Shown: piece after piece, positions 1-20,429 of the stretch
How positions within the stretch are numbered: the stretch's first letter is position 1
Layout: every line of letters starts with the position of its first letter
IMG/VR virus record: IMGVR_UViG_3300003691_000060
Location: 1-22,229 of that record
Length of the DNA stretch: 22,229 bases
DNA from: a virus
Direction: 5' to 3' (one strand)
Notes under the pieces: model-generated
Told to the model about the DNA's origin: nothing
Seen by the model: only the letters and a program-made list of their open reading frames with translations
Database searches by the model: none
Made by a program: the position numbers and the translations under genes

Positions 1-47
1 CATACAAGAACACGCAATATTTATTTTAATCAATTAATTTACACAAG

Positions 48-2099: not shown

Positions 2100-3347
2100 A
2101 TGAAGAAAAGACTGCAATTAGCTAATGGTTGTGAATGCACTCCTTTGGCAGTAACTCCTCAAAATTGGAAAACAGGACCTAAAGAATTATTAGAAAAAGA
2201 TTGGAGAATTCAATGCTATTTTTTTGACCCAAAATCTGAAAAATATTCTAAAGGTTATCAGTGGAGAATTAAAAGAATGAATGAATTTAAAACTCTTTAT
2301 GAAAGGAGGGAAGCAACTCAATTGATTCTTGATGAAATGAATAAAATGCTTACTCAAGAGCATTACAATCCAATTTATAAAACATTTACTAATATCATTT
2401 CTGAAATAAATGAGCACACTCCATTATTGGATGCTATGTTGTATTATTATAAGTCAAGGCCAGTAACTCATAAATACAAACTTGATATTAAATCTATGCT
2501 TAAATATGTTGAAATTTCTATTTCATCTATTGGTTTTAGATTTACACCAGTAAAGGATATAACCAGGAAAAATATAAAAGCTATTCTAAAACATCAACAA
2601 CAAACCAGGGGGATTTCTAATGATAGATATAATCGTTATAAAACCATGATGAGTAGCTTGTTTGATGAAATGATAGAAGATGAGGTTATAGAGCACAATC
2701 CTACTTATAAGATAAAAAAACTATCTGTAGAAAGAAGAATGAGAGAAGTTCTAACTAAAAAAGAAATGAAAGTTGTTAGTGATTATCTTTTAGAAACTAA
2801 TTACAATTTTTGGAGGTTCATAAATATTTGGGGTTCTTCAGGATCTAGAATATCAGAAATAATGACTGTTAAGATTAAATATATTGATCTGGCAAATCTT
2901 GAATACAAAGTGCTTGTGAAAAAGGGACGACAAAACAGAGAAGTAATAAAACCAATCAATAAAAATTATGTTGATCTATGGAAAGAATTGATAAATGAAA
3001 AAATTAATGATGAATTAATTGTAAACGGTGATTATTATTTATTTGCTAAAAATCTAAAGAAAGGGCCTGAAAAAATAGATCCTTCACAAATTACCAGAAG
3101 ATGGAGAGTGCATGTTAAAGACAAGTTAAAAATAACAAAAGATATATACTGTTACAAGCACATATATTCAGATGAAATAAGTAAACAATTAGATATAAAA
3201 CATGCTCAAAGACTTAACTCTCATACAACAGATAGAATGATGAAAGTGCACTATGCTGTGAATGAGAAGCAAAGAGTTTTAGAACGATTAAAAAATATTG
3301 ATGTTAACTTAACTGGAGAAAATGATGGTGTGTTGGAAGTGGTTTGA
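2100..3347 (+). CDS. int: tyrosine recombinase, phage integrase
   Basis: A 415-residue site-specific recombinase of the Bacteroidetes phage/mobile element type. The N-terminus (about 1-85) looks like the arm-DNA-binding region, residues about 105-205 like the SAM-like core-binding domain, and the rest like the catalytic domain. Candidate catalytic residues are Arg250 (SGSRISEI), Lys274/275 (VKKGRQNRE), His375 (NSHTTDRM) and Tyr385 (KVHY). The usual HxLR box is replaced by YCYKH (351-354), a departure I recall from other Bacteroidetes members with YSLKH. It should insert and excise the genome at the tRNA-Leu fragment just upstream. The start follows an A+T-rich leader without a Shine-Dalgarno sequence. 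Its end faces the leftward cargo genes. Confidence 0.93.
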   Translation: MKKRLQLANGCECTPLAVTPQNWKTGPKELLEKDWRIQCYFFDPKSEKYSKGYQWRIKRMNEFKTLYERREATQLILDEMNKMLTQEHYNPIYKTFTNIISEINEHTPLLDAMLYYYKSRPVTHKYKLDIKSMLKYVEISISSIGFRFTPVKDITRKNIKAILKHQQQTRGISNDRYNRYKTMMSSLFDEMIEDEVIEHNPTYKIKKLSVERRMREVLTKKEMKVVSDYLLETNYNFWRFINIWGSSGSRISEIMTVKIKYIDLANLEYKVLVKKGRQNREVIKPINKNYVDLWKELINEKINDELIVNGDYYLFAKNLKKGPEKIDPSQITRRWRVHVKDKLKITKDIYCYKHIYSDEISKQLDIKHAQRLNSHTTDRMMKVHYAVNEKQRVLERLKNIDVNLTGENDGVLEVV

Positions 3348-11274: not shown

Positions 11275-12159
11275 ATGAGTACAGAAAACACACAAGTAGC
11301 AATAATTAAAAAAGATATATCTGCACAGGTATTAAATAAGATTGACTCTTTCCAAAAATCAGGAGAATTAACATTACCAAAGGATTATAAAGTAGAAAAT
11401 GCATTAAAATCTGCATACATAATTTTATCAGACCCAAAGAATAACATTTTGGAAAAATGTGATAAATCATCAGTTGCTGAAGCATTATTAAAAATGGTAG
11501 TTTATGGAGTTTCTCCAATTAAAAAGCAATGTTATTTTATTCCTTATGGTGATAAATTAGAATGTTCAATTTCTTATGCAGGTAATATTGCAATTGCTAA
11601 AAGATATGGAAATCTTAAAAGCATAAAAGGAAATGCAGTTTTTGAAGGAGATACTTTTGAATTTGAAGTTGACCAAACTACAGGTAGAAGAAAAATCACG
11701 AAACACATTCAAACTTTAGATAGTGTTGGTTCTGGAATTGTAAAAGGGGCTTATTCAGTAATTGAATTGAAAGATGGAACTACAGATGTAGAGATTATGA
11801 ACATCAAACAAATTGAGGCTTCTTGGAAACAAGGTGGTGCAAAAGGAAATTCTCCAGCACATAAAAATTTTCCAGATCAAATGGCTATTAAAACTGTATC
11901 AAACAGAGCATGTAAATTATTAATAAGTACATCTGATGATTCTGTTTTATATGATTCTATTGAAGATGAACCTAAAGTGATTGATGTTACTGATGCAAAT
12001 GTTAAACATGAAATCAAACAAAATGCCAACAAAGAAATGTTAGACATTGAAGATGCAGATGTAATTGAAGCTGAAGAAATTCAAGAATTAGTTAATGAAA
12101 CTAAAGATAAAATAGCTCAAGAGGTATTTCAACCAGAAACTGAAGGACCAGGATTTTAA
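11275..12159 (+). CDS. recT: RecT-family single-strand annealing protein
   Basis: A 294-residue protein of the RecT family, which coats single-stranded DNA and anneals complementary strands. Recognisable parts are NALKSAYIILSD, the core ALLKMVVYGVSPIKKQCYFIPYG, the strand region LECSISYAGNIAIAKRYG, and later MAIKTVSNRACKLLIS. The C-terminal 55 residues are acidic (DVTDAN..., EDADVIEAEEIQE), as is common for this family. It lies between the SMC-like ATPase and a metallo-beta-lactamase-fold gene whose start comes one base after its stop, so the three probably act together in phage recombination. Confidence 0.93.
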   Translation: MSTENTQVAIIKKDISAQVLNKIDSFQKSGELTLPKDYKVENALKSAYIILSDPKNNILEKCDKSSVAEALLKMVVYGVSPIKKQCYFIPYGDKLECSISYAGNIAIAKRYGNLKSIKGNAVFEGDTFEFEVDQTTGRRKITKHIQTLDSVGSGIVKGAYSVIELKDGTTDVEIMNIKQIEASWKQGGAKGNSPAHKNFPDQMAIKTVSNRACKLLISTSDDSVLYDSIEDEPKVIDVTDANVKHEIKQNANKEMLDIEDADVIEAEEIQELVNETKDKIAQEVFQPETEGPGF

Positions 12160-15237: not shown

Positions 15238-16875
15238 ATGGAAACAATCATTGAAAACAAATTACAAATTTTAGATGTAAAAAACATCTTCATTTCAAAA
15301 ACAAATCCAAGAAAAACTATTGATGAAAAAGCATTAAATGAACTTTCTGAAAGCATTAAACAAAAAGGTGTAATTCAACCAATTTTGGTTAGGCCAATAC
15401 TTGATGGTTTTGATAAAAAAATGAATCAAGAATATGAATTGGTTTGTGGAGAAAGAAGATATAGAGCCTCTTTATTAGCAAAATTAAAAGTGATTCCTGC
15501 AAACATTAGAATGTTAGATGATGATGAAGCTTTTGAATTACAAATCATTGAGAATTTAGAACGTAAAGATGTGCATCCACTAGATGAAGCTGATGCTTTT
15601 AAAAAGATGTTGGATAGTGGTAAATACACTATTCAAGATGTAGCTGCTAAAATGGCAAAAACAGAACCATTCATTGCAGGAAGATTAAAATTAGTTGATT
15701 TGATAGAACCAATTAGAATTGATTTTGTCAAAGGTTTTTTAGGAATTGGTCATGCTACATTAATTGCTAAATGTGATGTTGAAAAACAAGAATCAATTCA
15801 TTCTAATGCTAAACCTTGGCGGGGTGGTGATGAATCAAATTATGGAACATACCAGGAATTAAAAGAAGATATTGAAGATGATTTATTAGATCTTACAGAA
15901 GCTCCATTCAGTTTGACAGAATGTTCTTTGCATTCTGGTGGTTCTGGAGCATGTAGTGTTTGTCCTAAACGTTCAAAAGCAAACCCTATTTTATTTGATG
16001 AATTCCAAGATGGAGATAATTGTTTTGATGAAAAGTGTTTTGAGAATAAAACAGAATCATTCACTCAAAAGGAATTAGCAAAAATCATCAATGAAAATTT
16101 AGATGTATGTATTGTTGCTGGAGGTAAACCAAGTGATTTTATTATTGATATGTGCAAACAATTCAATGTGAAAATTCTAAAGCATTGGGATGATTATAAA
16201 AATTATGATGGTCATGGTTATGTTGAGAAAAAAGCATTTAATGTTTCAGGATCTGAAGCTGGTACATATGAAAAGGTTTTTGTTAAGATTAATTCATCTA
16301 ATAGTGGAGAAGCATCAACTGAAAATTCTGGTAATGAAAGTATCAAACAAGATATTGATAAAATAGAAACTAGAGCAAAACGTGCTTTAGAATTAGATGC
16401 AGAAAAAGTTTGGGCTAACATTTTGAATGTTGATAATAAAACATTTAAAAACAACTCTGAAGAGCTTTCAAATCATGAAAAAAGAGCATTAGTTTCTGCT
16501 ATGCATAATCATTGTTATCAAGTGCATAATGAATTAGAATTTGTAAAGAATACAACTATAGAAACTATTTTAACTGAAGCTATTCCAGATCAATTAGTAA
16601 ATCTTGCTGTTAGAAGTTTTATAGCAAACACTTTAAACCATTCATATGGTTCTCATAAAACTTCAGCTTATGCAGCAGCTTACAAACAAGTTTTAGAAGA
16701 TTATTCACTAAAAGAAATAAAAGCTTTTGAAGCTGACCAAAAAGAAGTTGCAGACAAACGTATTGAAAGGACCAATAAAAGAATTGAAGATTTGAAATCG
16801 AAATTGATTACTGAAAAACCTAAAAAAGTTACTAAAAAGGCAACAAAAAAGAAAGTTGTTGCAAAAAAGAAATAA
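15238..16875 (+). CDS. ParB/Srx-fold protein with cysteine cluster and Lys-rich tail
   Basis: A 545-residue protein. Residues 12-120 form a ParB-like nuclease/CTPase domain, with GERRYRAS (71-78) and ENLERKDVHPLDEA (105-118) matching the conserved ParB boxes. A helix-turn-helix follows (about 131-155, TIQDVAAKMAKTEPFIAGRL). Next is a Cys cluster (C229, C239, C242, C262, C267) that may hold zinc, then a long middle, then a Lys-rich tail (KKVTKKATKKKVVAKKK) like histone H1-type tails. No ParA partner is in the window. Large ParB-like proteins occur in Bacteroidetes phages, with unclear roles in partition, replication or DNA packaging. The start follows a 55-bp gap with an A-rich leader. Confidence 0.82.
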   Translation: METIIENKLQILDVKNIFISKTNPRKTIDEKALNELSESIKQKGVIQPILVRPILDGFDKKMNQEYELVCGERRYRASLLAKLKVIPANIRMLDDDEAFELQIIENLERKDVHPLDEADAFKKMLDSGKYTIQDVAAKMAKTEPFIAGRLKLVDLIEPIRIDFVKGFLGIGHATLIAKCDVEKQESIHSNAKPWRGGDESNYGTYQELKEDIEDDLLDLTEAPFSLTECSLHSGGSGACSVCPKRSKANPILFDEFQDGDNCFDEKCFENKTESFTQKELAKIINENLDVCIVAGGKPSDFIIDMCKQFNVKILKHWDDYKNYDGHGYVEKKAFNVSGSEAGTYEKVFVKINSSNSGEASTENSGNESIKQDIDKIETRAKRALELDAEKVWANILNVDNKTFKNNSEELSNHEKRALVSAMHNHCYQVHNELEFVKNTTIETILTEAIPDQLVNLAVRSFIANTLNHSYGSHKTSAYAAAYKQVLEDYSLKEIKAFEADQKEVADKRIERTNKRIEDLKSKLITEKPKKVTKKATKKKVVAKKK

Positions 16876-17274: not shown

Positions 17275-18948
17275 ATGCAGATCATTCAACACCCAAATGA
17301 ATTTCACATTCGCATACCATTCAACAGTTGGAGAGTAAGAAATTTAGATGCAGTAAAAAGTTTATCAAAAAGGCGCTTTGATCCAGTAAAAAAAATGTGG
17401 GTTGCACCAAATTACATTTCTGTTGAAGTTTTGAAATTAGTGCAAACACATAGAGCTGAATTATTGGTAGTAGAAAAACAACAGGCAATTAAAATAGAAG
17501 AATTGCCTGAATTACCAACATTAGATTTTGAAATTCCATTATCTCATCCAGATGGTTTTGGTTTTAGGCCATATCAAAATAAAGGAGTTGCAAGAGGTAT
17601 TCAAATGAAAAGATTTATCAATGGTGATGAACAAGGTTTAGGAAAAACTTTACAATCTATAGGTACAATTCATGGTGCAGATTTAAAAGGAGAAAAAACA
17701 TTTCCTTGTTTAGTTGTTTGTCCATCATCTACCAAAATAAATTGGCAAAGAGAATGGAAACAATGGGCTGGCAGAACTGCAATTGTTTTAGATAATAAAA
17801 ATAAAAACACCTGGCACCGATTTTATGAAATGGGAATGGCAGATGTTTTTATTACTAATTATGAAAGCATGAAGAAATTCTTTGTTGATTCAATGCCTCC
17901 AAAAGGTAAAATGAGGAATTCAATGGATATAAAATTAAATGAAAGGACCAATTTATTTAAGTCAATAATTATTGATGAATCTCATAGATGTAAAGACACT
18001 AAAACTCAACAAACAAAATTTGCTTTGAGAATTGCAATGGGTAAAGACTGGAGAATTTTATTAACAGGAACCCCAGTTGTAAATAAACCAATGGATCTAT
18101 ATCCACAATTAGCAATAATGGGGCATCTAAATAAATTTGGAGGTAGTAAAGGTTTTAAAATGCGCTATTGTGAGGGTGGAAGTGGAGCTGCAAACCTTAA
18201 AGAATTGAATTTTTTATTGAACAAACATTGTTTTTTTAGAAGAGAAAAAATTGATGTAGCTCAAGATTTACCAGACAAACAAAGGCAAACCATTCTTTGT
18301 GATATTACCACTAGAAATGAATACAATAAAGCTAAAAATCAATTTGTAAAATATCTTGAAGAAAAAGGGTGGGATGATAAAGAAATAGCCAAAAAATTAC
18401 GTGGTGAAATAATGGTGAAAATGGGAGAATTGAAACGTATTTCAGCATTAGGAAAATTGGCAGAAGTAAGAGAATTTGTTAAAGAAGTAATGGATTCTGG
18501 AGAAAAACTAATTGTGTTTTGTTCTCTTCATGCAATAGTAGATGCAATGCTAAAAGAATTTCCTGAAGCAGTAACTGTAACTGGTAGAGATTCTATGGAT
18601 CAAAAACAAGAAAGTATTGATGCATTTCAAAATAATCCTGATGTAAAATTAATTGTTTGCAATATTAAAGCTGCTGGAGTAGGAATTACACTTACAGCTT
18701 CATCAAGAGTAGCTTTTATTGAATATCCATGGACATATTCAGATTGTGTTCAATGTGAGGATAGAGCACATAGAATTGGACAAAAAAACAATGTGATGTG
18801 CACTTACTTTTTAGGGCAAAATACTATTGATGAAAAAATGTTTGAAATGATACAAGCTAAAGCATCTACAGCAAATGCAATTACAGGTGCCACAGATGAA
18901 ATGAAAACTGATTTCATAGACAATGTAATGGATTTATTTAAAAGTTAA
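17275..18948 (+). CDS. SNF2-family DNA helicase/translocase
   Basis: A 557-residue SNF2-type helicase. Residues 1-60 resemble the small N-terminal DNA-binding (HARP-like) module of SMARCAL1-type proteins. Motif I is GDEQGLGKT (117-125), motif II DESH (234-237), motif III LTGTP (263-267), and motif VI the box QCEDRAHRIGQ near residue 480. The fork-remodelling SMARCAL1 branch is the nearest analogue I recall; phage relatives probably help restart or remodel replication forks. Its last base overlaps the start of a zinc-ribbon microprotein. Confidence 0.92.
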   Translation: MQIIQHPNEFHIRIPFNSWRVRNLDAVKSLSKRRFDPVKKMWVAPNYISVEVLKLVQTHRAELLVVEKQQAIKIEELPELPTLDFEIPLSHPDGFGFRPYQNKGVARGIQMKRFINGDEQGLGKTLQSIGTIHGADLKGEKTFPCLVVCPSSTKINWQREWKQWAGRTAIVLDNKNKNTWHRFYEMGMADVFITNYESMKKFFVDSMPPKGKMRNSMDIKLNERTNLFKSIIIDESHRCKDTKTQQTKFALRIAMGKDWRILLTGTPVVNKPMDLYPQLAIMGHLNKFGGSKGFKMRYCEGGSGAANLKELNFLLNKHCFFRREKIDVAQDLPDKQRQTILCDITTRNEYNKAKNQFVKYLEEKGWDDKEIAKKLRGEIMVKMGELKRISALGKLAEVREFVKEVMDSGEKLIVFCSLHAIVDAMLKEFPEAVTVTGRDSMDQKQESIDAFQNNPDVKLIVCNIKAAGVGITLTASSRVAFIEYPWTYSDCVQCEDRAHRIGQKNNVMCTYFLGQNTIDEKMFEMIQAKASTANAITGATDEMKTDFIDNVMDLFKS

Positions 18949-19079
18949 TGAAATGCCCTAACACATCATGTAAAAGTAAAAAAGTAAAGTATAAATATAG
19001 TTTTATTGAAGAACATGTTTATGAATGTAAAAAGTGTGGTAAAAAAATCATTATTGAACGAAAAAAAATAGAAAATTAA
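18948..19079 (+). CDS. 43-residue zinc-ribbon protein
   Basis: A 43-residue frame MKCPNTSCKSKKVKYKY... with Cys3, Cys8, Cys27 and Cys30 (CPNTSC and CKKC), the four-Cys plan of a zinc ribbon with a basic core. Its ATG overlaps the helicase stop (TAATG), and its stop overlaps the next start (TAATG again), so all three genes are translationally coupled. Small zinc ribbons in phages are often accessory subunits or DNA/RNA binding factors. Confidence 0.75.
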   Translation: MKCPNTSCKSKKVKYKYSFIEEHVYECKKCGKKIIIERKKIEN

Positions 19080-19774
19080 TGTCAAAATTAGGATATACTT
19101 TTTACCCAAAAGATTGGGGAAATGATGATGAAGTTTTTGAATTGACTTTATCTCAAAGAGGATTTTATAGAGAGCTTATTGATATGGCTATGTTAAATGA
19201 TAATAAGACTGTTTTAAATGTAAAAACATGGGCTAGGAAATTGAATTCTACCATTAAAGAAGTTCAAGATATTCTTGATGTTTTAGGTCACTTAAAATTG
19301 ATAATAATCAATAGTAAAAATGTAATGGTTCCAAGTTGTGAAAAACGTTTAAATCTTATTCGTGGAGGAAGAAAAGGAGGTAGTAAAAAGAAGCCTACCA
19401 CAAAGCCTATTATTAAGCCTATCCCAAAGCCTACCTCTAACCAAATAGAAACAGAAATAGAAACTAAAGATAAAGTAAATAAAAAAAAAGACATACATAA
19501 TTTTGCATATGATATTATAAAAAAAGAAAAACAAAGTGAATTAGAAATTTTTGAAATGCAAAACAAAAAATCATTTCCGGATTATGAAAAATTTATTGAG
19601 AATTTCAACAACAGAGTTGTGATAGAAAAATTAGCATTTGAACCCAATATTTTACTTGCAAGATTACGAATGTTAAACACAAATTGGGATAAAAAACCAA
19701 AATCAGAAAAGAAGGAAATTACAAGTGATAAAGTAATATCAAAATTAGCAGAATATGGAACTAGACCAAATTAA
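19079..19774 (+). CDS. phage replication initiator (O/DnaD-like) with embedded iterons
   Basis: A 231-residue protein with a winged-helix N-terminus (YTFYPKDWGNDDEVFELTLSQ, FYRELIDMAML, VLGHLKLI), the pattern of phage O/DnaD-type initiators. A Lys/Pro linker follows at about residues 105-120 (KPTT-KPII-KPIP-KPTS), then a helical C-terminal part. In the DNA that linker is four exact AAGCCTA repeats with 12-bp period, followed by A-rich sequence. This resembles lambda, where the origin sits inside gene O. The next gene, a DnaC-like loader, overlaps its last 20 bases, giving an O/P-type pair. The sequence pattern is seen; the origin role is inferred. Confidence 0.85.
   Translation: MSKLGYTFYPKDWGNDDEVFELTLSQRGFYRELIDMAMLNDNKTVLNVKTWARKLNSTIKEVQDILDVLGHLKLIIINSKNVMVPSCEKRLNLIRGGRKGGSKKKPTTKPIIKPIPKPTSNQIETEIETKDKVNKKKDIHNFAYDIIKKEKQSELEIFEMQNKKSFPDYEKFIENFNNRVVIEKLAFEPNILLARLRMLNTNWDKKPKSEKKEITSDKVISKLAEYGTRPN
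19391..19433 (+). repeat. four 12-bp iterons, putative replication origin
   Basis: AAGCCTA begins at 19391, 19403, 19415 and 19427, exactly 12 bp apart. In all four, Lys is AAG and Pro is CCT, although AAA dominates for Lys in this region, and the following codon starts with A each time. That is more sameness than the protein needs. Downstream (about 19440-19540) is A-rich, like a DNA-unwinding element. Confidence 0.65.
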
Positions 19775-20429
19775 TAAAGCAGTATATGGTTCAAAGAATA
19801 AAGTTGTTGAACATTTTATTCCTGTAAATGATTATTTCAGGCTTTTTAAAAAATATGCCGGAGAAGATTTTATTTACAATGATGATAATGAAAAAACAAT
19901 TAAAACAATTGGAAGGTATTTCTGTGGTTTATCAAATATCAATGAATTTGGTAAAATTTTAAATATAAAAGATGAAGAGGATAATGATTCAATCTTAAAA
20001 AAAGGGTTGTTTGTTTTTGGTGAAAATGGAGTTGGGAAATCTAAATTATTTGAAATAATAAACAAAATCGGAAAAGAGTATCATTTAGAAAAAAGAATTT
20101 TAACCAGGTGTTATTTCCAAAAAATAAATGCAAAACACTTTGTAAATCATTTCATGAAAGAAGTAACTAAATGGCAATCAGATTTTGATTTAGAAAGGTA
20201 TTACAAAGGAAATTTATACATAGGAGATTTAGGTCAAGAGGGTCTAGCTTTTAATAAAAAAGAACTATTAGGAGATGTTTTGTATGAAAGAAATAGAAGA
20301 AAAGGACACTCTTTTTGCTCAAGTAATCTATATCCAAATGAAGTTGGAATTAGATATGGAAATGCAATTGGAGATCGGTTAACACAAGATTTTAATATCA
20401 TTCAATGGAATGGGAATTCTTTTAGATAA
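19755..20429 (+). CDS. DnaC-like helicase loader ATPase
   Basis: A 224-residue AAA+ ATPase. Walker A is GENGVGKS (89-96), and Walker B is near Asp158 (LYIGDLGQE). The C-terminal end DRLTQDFNIIQWNGNSFR matches the end of DnaC/IstB-type proteins (R....FN.I.W.G.S.R). Such proteins load the replicative helicase at the origin. Overlap by 20 bases with the initiator makes an O/P-like pair. A DnaB helicase gene is not present here, so the host helicase would be used. Confidence 0.86.
   Translation: MELDQINKAVYGSKNKVVEHFIPVNDYFRLFKKYAGEDFIYNDDNEKTIKTIGRYFCGLSNINEFGKILNIKDEEDNDSILKKGLFVFGENGVGKSKLFEIINKIGKEYHLEKRILTRCYFQKINAKHFVNHFMKEVTKWQSDFDLERYYKGNLYIGDLGQEGLAFNKKELLGDVLYERNRRKGHSFCSSNLYPNEVGIRYGNAIGDRLTQDFNIIQWNGNSFR

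Follow-up and report, generated by a model that had tools for sequence, protein, structure and literature searches.

A probable replication origin inside a phage initiator gene, marked by short iterons conserved across reading frames

RESULTS

The window, the whole stretch of DNA that we analyzed, is one whole virus record of 22,229 bases. Its replication initiator gene contains an array of four AAGCCTA heptamers, and we conclude that this array is very probably the initiator-binding part of a theta origin located inside the initiator's own gene. Among relatives, the core of the heptamer is kept when both the reading frame and the encoded peptide change. Therefore, the DNA itself appears to be preserved, which would make this a gene segment where the protein sequence yields to the function of the DNA, even when the reading frame differs. 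Such a DNA-level signature would make it possible to locate replication origins in uncultivated phages with nothing but their sequence.

19079 to 19774, + strand: replication initiator gene, 231 aa (phrog_270 match, AlphaFold2 model, and family alignment)
19391 to 19397, + strand: iteron 1, AAGCCTA (sequence match)
19403 to 19409, + strand: iteron 2, AAGCCTA (sequence match)
19415 to 19421, + strand: iteron 3, AAGCCTA (sequence match)
19427 to 19433, + strand: iteron 4, AAGCCTA (sequence match)
19439 to 19445, + strand: AACCAAA in 12-bp register with the array, a possible degenerate half-copy (relatives have AAGCAAA or AACCAAA)
19440 to 19520, + strand: purine-rich, low-stability tract adjoining the array, a proposed DNA unwinding element (stability and purine percentiles)
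19755 to 20429, + strand: gene for a DnaC-like helicase loader, whose start overlaps the 3' end of the initiator gene (phrog_3277 match)

The array is distinguished by its phasing and codon choice

The initial annotation of this DNA had described AAGCCTA as recurring four times at 12-bp steps in the initiator gene. We confirmed the copies at 19391, 19403, 19415, and 19427; the steps are exactly 12 bp, and a scan of both strands found no other copy in the window. Four copies are unremarkable as a count (the chance mean is 2.05, and 20 of 100 shuffles had at least four). The annotation had also proposed that the Lys and Pro codons of the array depart from the habit of the gene, and this was borne out. 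Lys is encoded by AAA 27 times and by AAG 8 times in the whole gene, whereas all four Lys codons of the array are AAG. All four core Pro codons are CCT, the only CCT codons in the gene, whose seven other Pro codons are CCA, CCG, or CCC; the one Pro in a spacer is CCA. The joint hypergeometric probability of this bias is approximately 4e-6. What sets the array apart from chance is phasing and codon choice, not the number of heptamers.

When the window gene was analyzed alone, its self-match at a lag of 12 was not significant against synonymous permutation (p 0.5), because the encoded KPxx peptide itself repeats. Therefore, the window alone leaves conservation of DNA versus peptide unsettled, and the evidence for constraint on the array DNA comes from sequence comparison with relatives. 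GC skew, suggested in the annotation as a check, marked no origin in the window.

The initiator is predicted to have a winged helix followed by a disordered linker

The window protein matched phrog_270 (replication initiation protein; E 6.4e-5) over residues 2-138, which are the N-terminal half and linker only. The same PHROG was matched by 6 of the 38 family members. The window protein could not be placed confidently in any Pfam family. An AlphaFold2 model predicts a confident winged helix at approximately residues 20-85, a low-confidence (disordered) linker at approximately residues 90-119, and then a long helix and a helical C-terminal part. The iterons encode residues 105-118, which agrees with the earlier placement of the array in the linker between domains. 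In a fold search with the model, the RepA_N domains 4pql, 4pt7, 4pta, and 5kbj scored Z 7.7-8.1 over residues 1-86, but CRP and LexA scored equally high. Therefore, this indicates a shared fold and no family assignment. The nearest replication-related solved folds were the RepA_N initiator domains and ORC2 winged helices.

The gene that follows had been called a DnaC-like loader, and its product matched phrog_3277 (E 5.3e-11) and shares 29% identity with its DnaC-like counterpart in Polaribacter phage Freya. The annotation's flavobacterial host was not confirmed; there are indirect hints of Bacteroidota. Elsewhere in the window, positions 1940-1990 have a sequence (GCGGGTTCGAGTCCCGTCTTCCACCC) like that at the 3' end of tRNA genes and lie just before an integrase gene (2100-3347). 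No whole tRNA was found, and the segment looks like a phage attachment site.

Relatives carry the array in every distinct linker

With the whole window protein as the query, no relative was found in viral, genome, or phage collections. The first relatives were found by the iteron pattern (three iterons), which matched at least 119 contigs. These included 25 initiators sharing the N-terminal domain and approximately 90 KP-repeat proteins that are unrelated to the initiator and were set aside. We also set aside L020, L031, L062, L066, and L088, whose AAGCCT arrays lie in other frames and which fall outside the initiator family of the window. The bias of an array-based search was removed by using an alignment of the N-terminal domain alone as the query. 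This search found 102 relatives in viral contigs, of which 80 were kept, and one distant homologue in Sphingobacterium, the sole homologue in 395 sampled Bacteroidia genomes. The domain was in no named phage or plasmid of the collections searched. All 61 distinct linkers (window included) carry at least two iterons, 52 of the AAGCCT type and 9 of a variant CGRAACCT type, although these homologues share ancestry and their counts are not phylogenetically independent. In the 13 larger contigs, the array site is unique and always in the initiator gene.

The AAGCCT core is conserved across reading frames

We redrew the codons of 59 distinct linkers with the peptide held fixed. AAGCCT was expected 15.0 +/- 3.7 times but was observed 236 times. 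The excess was in all three frames (192 observed versus 13.2 expected, 16 versus 0.9, and 28 versus 0.9). A linker KP was encoded as AAGCCT in 192 of 218 cases. The annotation had held that its suspicion of constrained DNA would fail if relatives kept the KP-rich linker with varied codons, and we found the opposite. Furthermore, the six or seven AAGCCT copies of L189 and L190 are read in the two remaining frames, giving peptides such as KALPKAYSKALPEALPEAYSEA, and L207 has three copies encoding KASPKASPKASP. Approximately half of the distinct AAGCCT arrays have an extra copy at +11 bp in another frame, mostly GAAAGCCTT (Glu-Ser-Leu), and these arrays have one further copy 22 bp beyond. AAGCCT is followed by A or T in 95% of copies. 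Iteron steps are 12 bp (120 cases), 11 bp (27 cases), and 22 bp (24 cases), all near whole helical turns. The frame changes cannot stem from selection on the peptide.

A purine-rich, low-stability tract adjoins the array

The array itself is among the most stable DNA of the window (2-3 percentile). The annotation had pointed to an A-rich tract following it, and indeed no other 50 bp within 18400-20400 are less stable than those from 19470, which rank at the 99.3 percentile when compared with the whole window. For + strand purine content, the segment of 60 bp that starts at 19440 reaches the 99.9 percentile. At 58 distinct loci, the 50 bp immediately beyond the final iteron had median percentiles of 99.7 for purines and 85 for instability. 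The peptides encoded by the tract differ among relatives (REIEREIE, KKEKEKRKE, and KEKKVNRKES).

The winged helix and its iterons behave as a unit

The CGRAACCT variant occurs at 12-bp steps in L165, L171, L172, L175, L179, L196, L198, L200, L203, and L208. The N-terminal domain of L165 and L172 is nearly identical to that of L182, which has AAGCCT-type iterons. This suggests that the linker-iteron segment has been exchanged between the two types. C-terminal parts are mosaic across the family, with matches to DnaD-like, O-like, replisome-organiser, and primosomal PHROGs. The downstream genes of relatives also vary, being DnaB-like, primase-like, or RecA-like as read from translations. Therefore, the winged helix with its iterons behaves as a unit.

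The residue before an RGG motif is Ser in every CGRAACCT lineage; AAGCCT lineages, with a single exception, have Val, Ala, or Ile there. The tree is poorly resolved and implies as many as five switches. The residue lies near the array, so linkage accounts for the pattern no less well than specificity. In the linkers of L158, L167, L205, and L206, AAGGGT (Lys-Gly) replaces AAGCCT at some register positions. These positions may be weak sites, a second class of site, or lost sites.

A model for the array and alternative explanations

We propose that the initiator uses its predicted N-terminal winged helix to bind AAGCCTW iterons, which follow one another at approximately one helical turn (11-12 bp). 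The bound DNA would be the segment that encodes the disordered linker between the initiator's own two domains. The assembled array would then melt the neighboring purine-rich tract, and the C-terminal part of the initiator, together with the DnaC-like loader, would recruit the replicative helicase.

The array might instead be a coding minisatellite, in which a flexible Lys-Pro linker was expanded by 12-bp duplication and identical codons reflect recent copying, with no function of the DNA. Low-complexity KP-rich repeats of the same pattern do occur in the approximately 90 unrelated viral proteins, and the window gene alone was not above the synonymous-permutation null at lag 12. However, the core is invariant while spacers have diverged to 45% identity within arrays, it is retained where a shifted reading frame gives a different peptide, and in-frame 12-bp duplication cannot produce 11- and 22-bp steps. 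The sequences of the relatives thus appear to contradict this explanation already, and we regard it as very unlikely.

A second alternative is an autoregulatory operator, at which the bound initiator would repress or roadblock its operon and would not initiate replication. DNA-level conservation and a single array per genome would likewise be predicted. But the site is approximately 310 bp into the coding sequence, it adjoins the conserved purine-rich, low-stability tract with replication genes downstream, and known in-gene arrays with such anatomy are origins (PMC7466680, PMC5703833). An operator in place of an origin is therefore highly improbable in our judgment, although one array could have both roles. 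We give still less credence to a parS-like partition site, which we consider extremely unlikely. The window does encode a candidate partner, a ParB-like protein at 15238-16875 with ParB_N and HTH domains (PF02195, E 1e-26). However, among 14 other initiator contigs, which may be incomplete, ParB_N was above the cut-off in two and weak in one, whereas no relative has the initiator N-terminal domain without the array. ParB co-occurrence does not track the array, and therefore this explanation is weakened. The ParB-like gene sits in a replication and recombination cluster, with genes for RecT (11275-12159) and an SNF2-type helicase (17275-18948) adjoining.

Comparison with known in-gene origins

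Lambda has four to six iterons, which are longer (about 18-20 bp). The core in the window family is a heptamer every 11-12 bp and lies in other frames in some relatives. The annotation had recognized the lambda ori/O/P plan here. The anatomy does match, with repeats between the domain-coding parts in the middle of the initiator gene, an easily melted AT-rich tract beside them, and a helicase loader gene next. Two relatives in the window family also match O-like PHROGs. The phrog_270 match of the window protein stops short of the mosaic C-terminal parts. In lambda and Stx phages, iterons and an AT-rich tract are in the middle of gene O, and additional iterons alter the O protein linker (PMC7466680).

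On plasmid pSK41, four Rep boxes lie in a segment of rep that encodes a dispensable linker. The winged-helix N-terminal domain of Rep binds these centrally placed boxes, and the C-terminal domain is exchangeable between hosts (PMC5703833). The window array is similarly placed in the linker-coding part of a gene for a protein with a predicted winged-helix N-terminal domain. Residues 1-86 of the model can be superposed on the solved N-terminal domains of RepA_N initiators, although CRP and LexA fit equally well. The differences are that RepA_N (PF06970) was absent from the window protein's matches up to E 1 and from the families listed for the 38 members, and that the window belongs to a phage, which encodes a DnaC-like loader of its own. 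By analogy, lambda is a fair comparison, but the pSK41 RepA_N origin appears to be at least as close. The layout of an origin within a gene is therefore already known from lambda and pSK41; the short core, the 11- to 12-bp spacing, and the crossing of frames differ here.

Similar arrays in other phages

Phages whose SNF2 helicase gene is closely related to the window's have unrelated initiators, as judged by BLAST of the L009 protein against the window protein. In L009, AAAGCA recurs at steps of 12, 12, 11, 12, 11, 12, and 12 bp, with three, two, and three copies in the three frames. L008 has a similar array, and that of L006 is in two frames. Synonymous recoding of L006, L008, and L009 gave a mean of 1.6-2.5 AAAGCA copies, compared with the 7-9 observed. 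Two cultured phages also have 12-bp arrays. In Polaribacter phage Freya_1, an array of AATAGTAGTGAT is in Freya1_55, a gene annotated as a transcriptional regulator that precedes the DnaC-like gene, and Bacteroides phage BS-TP3 has an array of TTAAGTAAACCC in gp42. Their position and layout suggest that both genes encode initiators, and these phages therefore offer candidate origins of like layout that are testable.

A lag of 12 was the top or tied-top period in 13 of 19 genes tested, and the six others peaked elsewhere. The lag-12 signal reached p 0.005, the floor of the test, in Freya_1, BS-TP3, L007, L009, L190, and L207. No clear 12-bp array was found in L004, L005, L011, L013, or L015, which have other or no clear periods. 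Therefore, 12-bp arrays are not universal. In L004 and L005, the linker of the initiator-like gene after the SNF2 helicase gene has top lags of 10, 15, and 20, that is, a 5-bp period.

A broader proposal, which we hold to be about evenly balanced between right and wrong, is that phages of Bacteroidota commonly use in-gene origins with a core word every 11-12 bp. Several unrelated initiator families would each have their own word (AAGCCTW, CGRAACCT, AAAGCA, TTAAGTAA, or AATAGTAGTGAT). The word would be free across all three frames, the protein linker would be a by-product of the DNA, and the winged helix and linker-encoded iterons would be exchanged as one specificity module. We found no papers on such origins in phages of Bacteroidota in the open literature, subscription papers being outside the scope of the search, and the word AAGCCTA returned only noise there.

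The distant Sphingobacterium homologue was also inspected. At L139:2803-2867, three copies of AACCCAAA are spaced 11 bp apart, one per reading frame, and a fourth lies 35 bp farther on. The lag-12 signal of L139 was rejected as evidence of iterons; it comes from a purine tract and not from the AACCCAAA copies. The AACCCAAA copies are possibly L139's own iterons.
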